64,000 nucleotides of DNA. Origin: Gordonia terrae (GTDB taxonomy: Bacteria > Actinomycetota > Actinomycetes > Mycobacteriales > Mycobacteriaceae). The stretch is from the NCBI RefSeq assembly GCF_001698225.1, contig NZ_CP016594.1, positions 2,542,001-2,606,000 on the forward strand. Reading direction: 5' to 3'. Position numbers and translations under genes: made by a program. Below the pieces are notes generated by a model. That model had not been told where the DNA came from. It saw nothing but the letters and a program-made list of their open reading frames with translations, and did no database searches. The number at the start of each line of letters is the position of its first letter. The stretch's first letter is position 1. Shown one piece after another: positions 7,393-10,429 of this stretch.

Positions 7393-8442
7393 TCAGCTCG
7401 TCCGGGTGGGGGAGTGCGTCCCGCTTGCGCCCGCGTCGGGTTCGGGTGCGGTGTCGGCGGCCGGGATGTCGGACGTCGATGCCGCCTCGGTGCCCGAACG
7501 CTCCGTGCCCTCGGCGCCCACGAGCGCCTCTTCCTGCTCCTCGCGGAAGTGGGTGACCGCGTCCGAGGACTCGTTCTCACGGTCGCGCAGGTACTCGCGA
7601 AGCGAGTAGGCGAACGCCGCTGCCCAGGCGATGGCGATCACGACGTAGAAGACGTTGCGCACCGAGCCGGGGGCATCGATGAAGTCGCTCTTCAGCAGGC
7701 TGCGGGTGTTGGTGAGGACGATCAGGCCGCCGACCGAGGCGCCCAGAAGGCGCGGCGGGATGTGGCGCACGAGCCAGGCGGCGATCGGTGCGGCGATCAC
7801 GCCGCCGACGAGGATGGCGCCCACCCACGCGAAGTTGATGCCCTGCGAACCGAGGCTGAACAGGAATCCGAGGCTGGCGGCGACGGCGATGATGAACTCG
7901 CTGGTGTCGATCGAACCGATCACCTTGCGGGGTTCGAGGCGGCCGCTGGCCAGGATGGCCGGGGTGCCGACCGGCCCCCAGCCGCCGCCACCGGTGGCGT
8001 CGACGAATCCGGCGACGAATCCGAGCGGGCTGAGGAAGCGCTTGCGCAGCGGCTTGCCGAGGTTGTGCCGGGGAATGCCCTGGAAGGTGAAGCGCACCAG
8101 GATGTAGAGACCCAGCAGCAGGAGGATCACGGCCATGACGGGGGCCGCGGTCTCGGTGGAGAGATTCGACAGGATCGTCGCGCCGAGGAATGCGCCGATG
8201 GCACCCGGAATCGCGATCCGGCGCACGACGCGCCAGTCGACGTTGCCGAACTTCCAGTGCGAGACGCCGGACACCAGCGTGGTGCCGATCTCGGCCAGGT
8301 GCACCGTTGCCGACGCGGCGGCCGGGTTGGTGCCGATGGCGAGGAGGAGGGTCGTGGTGGTGACGCCATAAGCCATGCCGAGACTGCCGTCGACGAGCTG
8401 TGCAGCGAAGCCGACGAGGCCGATCAGGACAATCGTTCTCAT
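7393..8442 (-). CDS. TauE/SafE family sulfite/sulfonate exporter-like permease
   Basis: A 349-residue membrane protein with about eight hydrophobic helices and the TauE/SafE repeats (LVGFAAQLVDGSLGMAYG, SATVHLAEIGTTLVSG, GFVAGFVDATGGGGWGP, GSIDTSEF). The acidic C-terminal tail of about 90 residues is cytoplasmic and low complexity. Family members move sulfite, sulfonates or related organosulfur anions across the inner membrane. A role in sulfur handling is supported here by an upstream leader peptide of the cysteine-responsive actinobacterial type. The ATG at 8442 follows GGAAAGA. It is the only obvious gene in its transcript. Confidence 0.88.
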   Translation of the reverse strand: MRTIVLIGLVGFAAQLVDGSLGMAYGVTTTTLLLAIGTNPAAASATVHLAEIGTTLVSGVSHWKFGNVDWRVVRRIAIPGAIGAFLGATILSNLSTETAAPVMAVILLLLGLYILVRFTFQGIPRHNLGKPLRKRFLSPLGFVAGFVDATGGGGWGPVGTPAILASGRLEPRKVIGSIDTSEFIIAVAASLGFLFSLGSQGINFAWVGAILVGGVIAAPIAAWLVRHIPPRLLGASVGGLIVLTNTRSLLKSDFIDAPGSVRNVFYVVIAIAWAAAFAYSLREYLRDRENESSDAVTHFREEQEEALVGAEGTERSGTEAASTSDIPAADTAPEPDAGASGTHSPTRTS

Positions 8443-8568
8443 AGTGGGTCTTTCCGGGAAGTCACACCGTCAGGGGCGTGACGAGGCTGGAGCGGGCACG
8501 ATGCGGCCGCGAGAAGAGAAACGCAGAAGGTGGGGACGCACGTGGGCCCCGGGGCGGGTTGGGTCGTC

Positions 8569-8664
8569 TCACAGACACAGCATCGAGGCTGTGCGCAGCA
8601 GGTCAACGGTGGCGCGGCGCACCAACATGGCGCCGCGTCTGCTCCCGGTCACTGCGTAAGTCAC
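8569..8664 (-). CDS. Leader peptide of the actinobacterial sulfur/cysteine type (leaderless candidate)
   Basis: A short minus-strand frame ends VRRATVDLLRTASMLCL and stops at 8569. The RR-x3-DL-x-R-x2-S-x-LC pattern is the signature of leader peptides found ahead of sulfur-assimilation and transport genes in Streptomyces and mycobacteria, with a Cys codon two codons before the stop. The GTG at 8664 is preferred (31 residues) because a TAGGAT -10 element ends six bases upstream, so transcription would begin on the start codon, as for many mycobacterial leaderless genes. An ATG at 8628 (19 residues) is the alternative. It lies 126 bases upstream of the TauE gene on the same strand and probably controls it by attenuation or coupling. 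Confidence 0.65.
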   Translation of the reverse strand: MTYAVTGSRRGAMLVRRATVDLLRTASMLCL

Positions 8665-8670
8665 CGCGCC

Positions 8671-8676
8671 ATCCTA
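8671..8676 (-). promoter_or_regulatory. -10 element for the leader peptide/TauE transcript
   Basis: TAGGAT on the minus strand, six bases from the GTG at 8664. No good -35 is visible (GGAGTT is the nearest at standard spacing), which is common for actinobacterial promoters. Confidence 0.45.
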
Positions 8677-8776
8677 TGTAGTGCCTCGCCGAAACTCCGA
8701 CTCTCCGCCTGTGTCGAAATCGGAGCGCGCGCAAACCTTGACAAATCTGCCTTTGCGTGTCTGTGCGGGCACGAAA

Positions 8777-8819
8777 ACGCCGTCGCCCCCGTACCGGTGA
8801 GGCACGGGGGCGACGGCGT
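8777..8819 (-). terminator. Rho-independent terminator of sigA
   Basis: A perfect 16-base stem (8777-8792 with 8804-8819) and 11-base loop. Read on the minus strand it is followed by TTTTCG, a short T-run, 17 bases beyond the sigA stop. Confidence 0.85.
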
Positions 8820-8835
8820 CGAACGAAGGGGCGAC

Positions 8836-10275
8836 CTAGTCCAGGTAGTCGCGCAGGACCTGCGACCGCGACGGGTGGCGCAGCTTGGACATCGTCTTGG
8901 ACTCGATCTGCCGGATGCGCTCGCGGGTCACGCCGTACACCTGGCCGATCTCGTCGAGCGTGCGGGGCTGACCGTCGGTGAGACCGAACCGCAGGCGGAC
9001 GACGCCGGCCTCGCGCTCGGACAGGGTCTCCAGGACCGACTGCAGCTGATCCTGCAGCAGCGTGAAGCTGACCGCGTCCACCGCGACCACGGCTTCGGAG
9101 TCCTCGATGAAGTCACCGAGCTGGCTGTCGCCCTCGTCGCCGATGGTCTGGTCCAGGGAGATGGGTTCCCGGGCGTACTGCTGGATCTCCAGCACCTTCT
9201 CCGGGGTGATGTCCATCTCCTTGGCGAGCTCCTCAGGCGTCGGCTCGCGGCCGAGGTCCTGGAGCAGTTCGCGCTGGATTCGACCGAGCTTGTTGATGAC
9301 CTCGACCATGTGCACCGGGATACGGATGGTGCGGGCCTGGTCGGCCATGGCACGGGTGATCGCCTGGCGAATCCACCAGGTGGCGTAGGTCGAGAACTTG
9401 TAACCCTTGGTGTAGTCGAACTTCTCGACCGCGCGGATCAGACCGAGGTTGCCCTCCTGGATCAGATCCAGGAACGCCATGCCGCGGCCGGTGTAGCGCT
9501 TGGCCAGGGAGACGACCAGGCGGAGGTTCGCCTCGAGCAGGTGGTTCTTGGCGCGGTTGCCGTCGCGCGAGATCCAGTTGAGATCGCGTTTCTGGGCGGT
9601 GCTGAGCTTCTCGCCGGCATCCATGATGCGGCGGAGACGTTCGGTGGCGAAGAGACCGGCCTCGATCCGCTTGGCGAGCTCGACCTCCTCCTCCGCATTG
9701 AGGAGGGCGACCTTGCCGATCTGCTTCAGATACGCGCGGACGCTGTCGGCGGAGGCGGTGAGTTCGGCGTCCTTGCGCGCCTGGCGCAGGGCCTCCGATT
9801 CCTCCTCGTCCCACACGAAGTCGCCCGACTTCGCAGCGGCGGACTCGTCTTTGGCGCCCGCCTTCGCGGTGGCGGAGGCGGCGGCGGCCGGGGCCTTGGC
9901 GTCGGTGGCCTCCTCGTCGTCGTCCGACTCGTCGGAATCGTCATCGTCGTCGTCGACCTCGAGGTCGTCGATCTCGACGTCTTCCAACTCGGCGTCGGGA
10001 CCGTCGATGTCGTCGATCGAGTCCGGGTCGTCGGGCTCGGCGTTCGGATCGTCGCCGGCGCCCTCGGCCGACGCGGCCTTCTTGGCAGCTTTCTTCGGGG
10101 CCGCCTTCTTGGTGGCCTTCTTCGCTGCTGCCTTCTTGGCGGGAGCCTTCCGGGCGGCGGTCTTCTTCGCAGCCTTCTTGGCGGTCCGTTTGGCCGGGGC
10201 GTCGGTCGCGGCGGGGGTCGACTCGGTCGACTCCTCGGCCTCTACATCACCCTGATGGGTCGTGATGGCTGCCAC
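8836..10275 (-). CDS. sigA: Principal RNA polymerase sigma factor SigA
   Basis: The 479-residue housekeeping sigma factor. The N-terminal extension holds a Lys/Ala-rich tract (about 29-69) and then an acidic tract (about 74-123) before the conserved core beginning [17 protein letters not shown]. Regions 1.2 ([13 protein letters not shown]), 2 ([32 protein letters not shown]), 3 and 4 ([30 protein letters not shown]) are intact, and the C-terminus VLRDYLD matches mycobacterial SigA. The GTG at 10275 has GAAAGG six bases upstream; the frame upstream of it is promoter sequence. ppgK lies upstream on the same strand, and a strong terminator follows. Confidence 0.97.
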
Positions 10276-10396
10276 GTACAACCTTTCGAACTGTCTTCTG
10301 TGGTGTCTACTGTCGTCTGTCACCAGACGCGACACGGCAGCACGAGCCGCCGTGGACGAGGTCTTGGTTTCGCGGTTGGAATGACCGGTGACGACC

Positions 10397-10429
10397 ATTG
10401 TAACGACATCGTCCGGTCCGGTGTGTCAA
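10397..10429 (-). promoter_or_regulatory. Possible sigA promoter elements
   Basis: TTGACA (10429-10424) and TACAAT (10402-10397) occur on the minus strand 120-155 bases upstream of the sigA GTG. The 21-base spacing is long for one promoter, so they may belong to two overlapping promoters. Confidence 0.35.

Follow-up and report, generated by a model that had tools for sequence, protein, structure and literature searches.

Leader peptides with cysteine codons have already been published for actinobacteria (PMC1262725; PMC4633059). The candidate leaders described by Seliverstov (2005; PMC1262725) stand ahead of cys operons in Mycobacterium and Propionibacterium and of cbs in Bifidobacterium; they carry runs of Cys codons near the stop codon, show no terminator hairpin and are followed by a pyrimidine-rich stretch before the gene. 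For the mycobacterial cys leaders, control by Rho was proposed (PMC1262725). Mycobacterial poly-cysteine short open reading frames (Canestrari, 2020, as cited in PMC9031893 and PMC9094748) are leaderless, lie ahead of sulfur genes and have their Cys codons close to the stop, and one such leader in M. smegmatis is reported to act by translation attenuation (PMC9031893). The leader analyzed here, which precedes a TauE/SafE permease gene (tauE) in Gordonia, belongs to this already known kind of cysteine leader; new are its TauE target and the reinterpretation of that target. Within the freely readable literature, no report of a leader before a TauE gene was found, which is weak evidence of absence.

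The window, a stretch of 64,000 nucleotides from Gordonia terrae, carries the leader on the minus strand as a frame of 31 codons (8569..8664; GTG at 8664, TGA at 8569; MTYAVTGSRRGAMLVRRATVDLLRTASMLCL). Its core, VDLLRTASMLC (8575..8607), ends in a single Cys codon, TGT (8575..8577), two codons ahead of the stop and not part of a run of Cys codons; this codon would be the sensor. A -10 hexamer, TAGGAT (8671..8676, minus strand), ends 6 nt before the GTG, and 126 bases separate the leader stop from the tauE ATG at 8442. The principal sigma factor gene (sigA; 8836..10398, minus strand) lies upstream; in 20 of the 22 Gordonia loci with a leader, its C-terminal part adjoins the frame. Peptide, coordinates, hexamer spacing, gap and position of the Cys codon were all confirmed as given in the preliminary description of this locus. 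A Pfam search of the peptide yielded no match, and Rfam gave only two matches, both under their gathering scores and on the opposite strand. With the NF042934 "putative leader peptide" profile, the window peptide scored 17.8 bits, below the cut-off of 27, and at conserved places of the profile it has T instead of V and L instead of R. Taken alone, the window copy would therefore be weak evidence.

Comparison within the genus changed this picture. Among 59 Gordonia genomes, 23 tauE orthologues (matches at E ≤ 1e-60) were found and the leader frame precedes 22 of them, the sole exception being a 70%-identical homologue in G290. The preliminary description had suggested looking for the peptide upstream of TauE genes in other Gordonia genomes, where the frame indeed proved conserved. 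In the 21 tabulated leader rows (L042 is not in the table), residues D, L, R, A, S, M, and C of the core are invariant. Between 17 distinct 36-nt cores, mean dN was 0.10 and mean dS 0.72 (dN/dS 0.14), and differences clustered at third codon positions (585 of 930). These substitutions mark the genus core, VDLLRVASMLC, as being under constraint at the protein level. All 22 tauE leaders use TGT as their Cys codon, against a background of 26 TGT and 78 TGC codons in 68 gene-like frames taken from eight named Gordonia loci and the window, although the 22 leaders are related and do not represent 22 independent events. In 11 of the 22, the Cys codon is followed by a further 3–8 codons.

Used as a DNA pattern, the core gave only two matches in 249 genomes of the order, both from the same genus, and matched eight contigs in a collection of named genomes, all of them Gordonia. 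Outside the genus, regular expressions, which divergent leaders could escape, detected a leader in 3 of 91 tauE upstream stretches (L028, L079, and L121) and none in the remaining 88. Pairing of the leader with tauE therefore appears to be rare elsewhere. That the leader is a chance frame devoid of function would agree with the score of the window copy alone, which stays under the NF042934 cut-off, but this explanation is contradicted by conservation of the frame, placement of the -10 hexamer and the dN/dS ratio, and is considered extremely improbable.

In 21 of the 22 leader loci, a TANNNT hexamer ends 6–7 bases before exactly one in-frame start, a spacing seen at only 1 of the 474 other start-like triplets of these upstream regions and at 14 of 4500 triplets in the window. 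This placement would set the mRNA start on the start codon itself and supports the leaderless arrangement previously suggested for the window locus. A promoter scan of positions 8300–8900 showed no full sigma-70-type promoter: the -10 hexamer stands alone, with no fitting -35. The one locus lacking a -10 is that of G032, where the leader ATG lies 2 bases behind the cysNC stop, and the leader would therefore be read from the cysNC operon. A separate tauE promoter in the spacer between leader and gene was also considered and rejected, since none of the 22 spacers contains a TANNNT hexamer.

Upstream of the leader, at 77–80 nt before its start, an element to which no role is assigned (TTTGTCAAGGTTTG; 8732..8745, minus strand) shares GTCAA with all 21 loci that have a -10. 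It is possibly a regulator site or a second promoter. In the window's own genome, only one other site, at three mismatches, was found. Genus-wide matches to TGTCAAGGGTTGTGC, with two mismatches allowed, were no commoner than those to a reversed control, and the element thus gives no regulon. An inverted repeat is visible by eye between sigA and the leader, where a terminator scan of positions 8300–8900 reports none.

Kindred leaders are widespread in the class: of 118 genomes, 85 had an NF042934 (cis_reg_atten) match at E ≤ 0.001 and 71 a score over the cut-off, against 0 of 14 controls. Close to their C-terminus, the tauE-linked leaders share the motif R-x-[VI]-D-L-x-R-V-x-x-x-x-C with this family and, unlike the window copy, five tauE-linked Gordonia leaders reach the cut-off (G006, G288, and G022; G297 and G010 together with frame neighbors). 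The highest-scoring NF042934 match in the genus, L173 (G012, C1:119025), reaches 35 bits. The window's own genome holds two kindred leaders, one before a nitrite/sulfite reductase gene (L001, C1:3618404) and one, with four Cys codons, before a rhodanese gene (L002, C1:4585822). Ten downstream genes, hand-picked from 59 loci with kindred leaders, encoded sulfite/nitrite reductase (three), rhodanese (two), DUF4395 proteins (two), and one each of a luciferase-like monooxygenase, a dicarboxylate symporter, and a flavin reductase. The window leader, too, is a short frame placed ahead of a gene related to sulfur. Genus-wide conservation and the five orthologues over the cut-off bear out the earlier assignment of the frame as an actinobacterial cysteine-type leader. 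It shares with the mycobacterial poly-Cys frames the leaderless start, Cys close to the stop, a position ahead of a sulfur gene and, in its own genome, a poly-Cys relative before a rhodanese gene. In contrast to the tested mycobacterial leaders, which carry Cys runs, it has one Cys codon and its target is a permease.

The untranslated spacer (8443..8568, minus strand) is C-rich and G-poor and may be a candidate Rho loading region. Its skew, (C-G)/(C+G), was positive in 22/22 Gordonia loci, with a mean of 0.29, compared with 0.065 in 92 other tauE upstream stretches and 0.006 in 72 genes of the same genus that have no leader; for 38 leader-preceded genes, tauE genes included, the mean was 0.19. 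The skew flips at the leader stop, from -0.15 over the final 15 bases of the leader to +0.32 over the 15 that follow. No terminator-like site was reported between positions 8300 and 8900, and the fold of the 255-base leader region was no better than that of shuffled sequences (z 0.19). Rho loading sites are marked by a high C:G ratio and absence of structure (PMC12121999). Because the C-richness of the spacer sets in right at the leader stop, these observations favor Rho-type control. The locus thereby resembles the cys leaders of Seliverstov (2005; PMC1262725) in its Cys near the stop, the absence of a terminator hairpin, the pyrimidine-rich region preceding the gene and the proposed role of Rho, and differs from those described there in its tauE target, its single Cys codon and a C bias measured across the genus.

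On this basis, the locus is best read as a conserved actinobacterial cysteine-family leader, kin to NF042934, that would raise expression of a TauE/CysZ-like permease under cysteine shortage, a reading to which we assign a probability of about 0.6. Transcription would start on the GTG itself. When Cys-tRNA is scarce, the ribosome would wait at the UGU codon of the leader, possibly aided by the constrained nascent chain, and would thereby hinder termination by Rho. With plentiful cysteine, the ribosome would leave at the stop, exposing the C-rich spacer, and Rho would end transcription before tauE. As the permease would import sulfate or sulfite, the switch would raise sulfur uptake. What the sequence itself shows is the frame and its conservation, the leaderless-type -10, the invariant TGT, the kindred sulfur-gene leaders and the C-rich spacer. 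Since 3–8 codons follow the Cys codon in half of the leaders (11/22), a ribosome waiting there would not reach far enough to cover the spacer.

The same sensor could instead act on translation, with a stalled ribosome freeing the ribosome-binding site of tauE from RNA structure. At the window locus this site is probably GGAAAG (8450..8455, minus strand), and GAAAG or GGAGAG precedes the tauE start in 22/22 loci. Such an output would match that described for the M. smegmatis poly-Cys leader (PMC9031893). In one coarse folding model applied to the 22 loci, however, the tauE site was largely accessible when no ribosome was present (mean 0.61 unpaired) and slightly less so with a ribosome at the Cys codon (0.57), a shift in the wrong direction (p 0.02). 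Hiding of the tauE start until a stall occurs was consequently discarded as unsupported within this minimal model, although tertiary or alternative folds may behave differently. This result sets the locus apart from the mycobacterial leader, and translation attenuation is regarded as unlikely.

Rather than a starved codon, the sensor might be the nascent chain, VDLLRVASMLC, which would arrest translation upon sulfur-metabolite binding, in the manner of TnaC with tryptophan. That D, L, R, A, S, and M are so strictly constrained (dN/dS 0.14) in a peptide with only one Cys speaks for such a sensor, but may also reflect constraint on codons or RNA, and the poly-Cys leaders of the family are in keeping with simple codon starvation. 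A pure nascent-chain sensor is viewed as doubtful. A broader version of the preferred reading, held with comparably low confidence, is that the VDLLRVASMLC chain and UGU might jointly stop the ribosome when cysteine is low, so that Rho is kept away from the spacer and the importer is switched on, and that this importer replaced a lost sulfate ABC transporter in this Gordonia lineage.

The product of tauE (7393..8442, minus strand; 349 aa) scored 152 bits with the TauE/SafE family (PF01925; gathering cut-off 32.6), and a PDB sequence search returned three weak matches and no TauE structure. The preliminary description took the protein for a sulfite exporter. Its sequence context points in another direction. 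In Corynebacterium glutamicum, genes are ordered fpr2-cysIXHDNYZ, and a strain without cysZ failed to grow with 2 mM sulfate or sulfite, growth being restored at high sulfate (PMC1266029). Genome G251, of the same family, encodes a homologue 58% identical to the window protein over 232 aa, whose gene comes last in a series of sulfite/nitrite-reductase-, CysH-, CysD-, CysN-, and sirohydrochlorin-chelatase-like genes, which follows the C. glutamicum order (cysI-H-D-N-Y-Z-like). In G032, the order (L210, 3263-8113) is sigA, a Stf0 sulfotransferase gene, CysD-like and CysNC-like genes, leader and tauE. This CysZ-type order with assimilatory sulfate reduction genes is absent from the window locus, where tauE stands by itself next to sigA and has a leader of its own, and in 46 of 47 tauE loci, most of them with only 1.5 kb flanks, no cysI, H, D, N, or Y gene adjoins. 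Likeness to CysZ is judged from protein family and synteny.

A second line of evidence comes from other sulfate transporters. CysT, the permease of the sulfate ABC transporter, scored over the cut-off in 54 of the 59 Gordonia genomes, and the five CysT-less genomes, the window's own included, all carry leader and tauE. The difference in tauE presence (5/5 versus 18/54 in genomes with CysT) corresponds to a Fisher p of 0.007, a value weakened by shared ancestry: the five genomes sit in one tauE clade, so that few independent events are represented. SulP was found in 58 of 59 genomes and the window's own genome has four SulP matches; tauE is therefore not claimed as the sole sulfate importer. 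Separately, sulfate ABC-transporter genes were seen beside the sulfite-reductase operon in G289 and were missing there in G288 and in the window's own genome (L214, L216, and L217).

An exporter under control of the leader would relieve sulfite stress instead of feeding cysteine synthesis. Besides the Pfam name TauE, this interpretation can draw on Streptomyces, in which some TauE proteins encoded beside persulfide dioxygenase are taken as sulfite exporters (PMC7533328). It accords poorly with the cys-operon synteny in G251 and G032, with the kindred leaders preceding assimilation genes elsewhere in the genome of the window and with the presence of leader and tauE in all CysT-less genomes, and it is judged distinctly improbable, more so than translation attenuation or a nascent-chain sensor. 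Import would fit better, because the gene would be induced by cysteine shortage along with sulfite reductase. With cys-operon synteny and the CysT-less genomes weighed against SulP, the single clade, the 46 loci that lack cys neighbors and the exporter papers, the tauE product is likely to import sulfate or sulfite as an uptake permease of the CysZ kind. The claim of sulfite export was thus not borne out, and the label "sulfite exporter" is likely misleading for the window permease.

If this reading is correct, a TauE-family permease would join the actinobacterial cysteine leader system and a likely misleading annotation would be corrected. The locus would also offer a compact, single-codon test case for leader action where neither a terminator nor hiding of the start site is seen.
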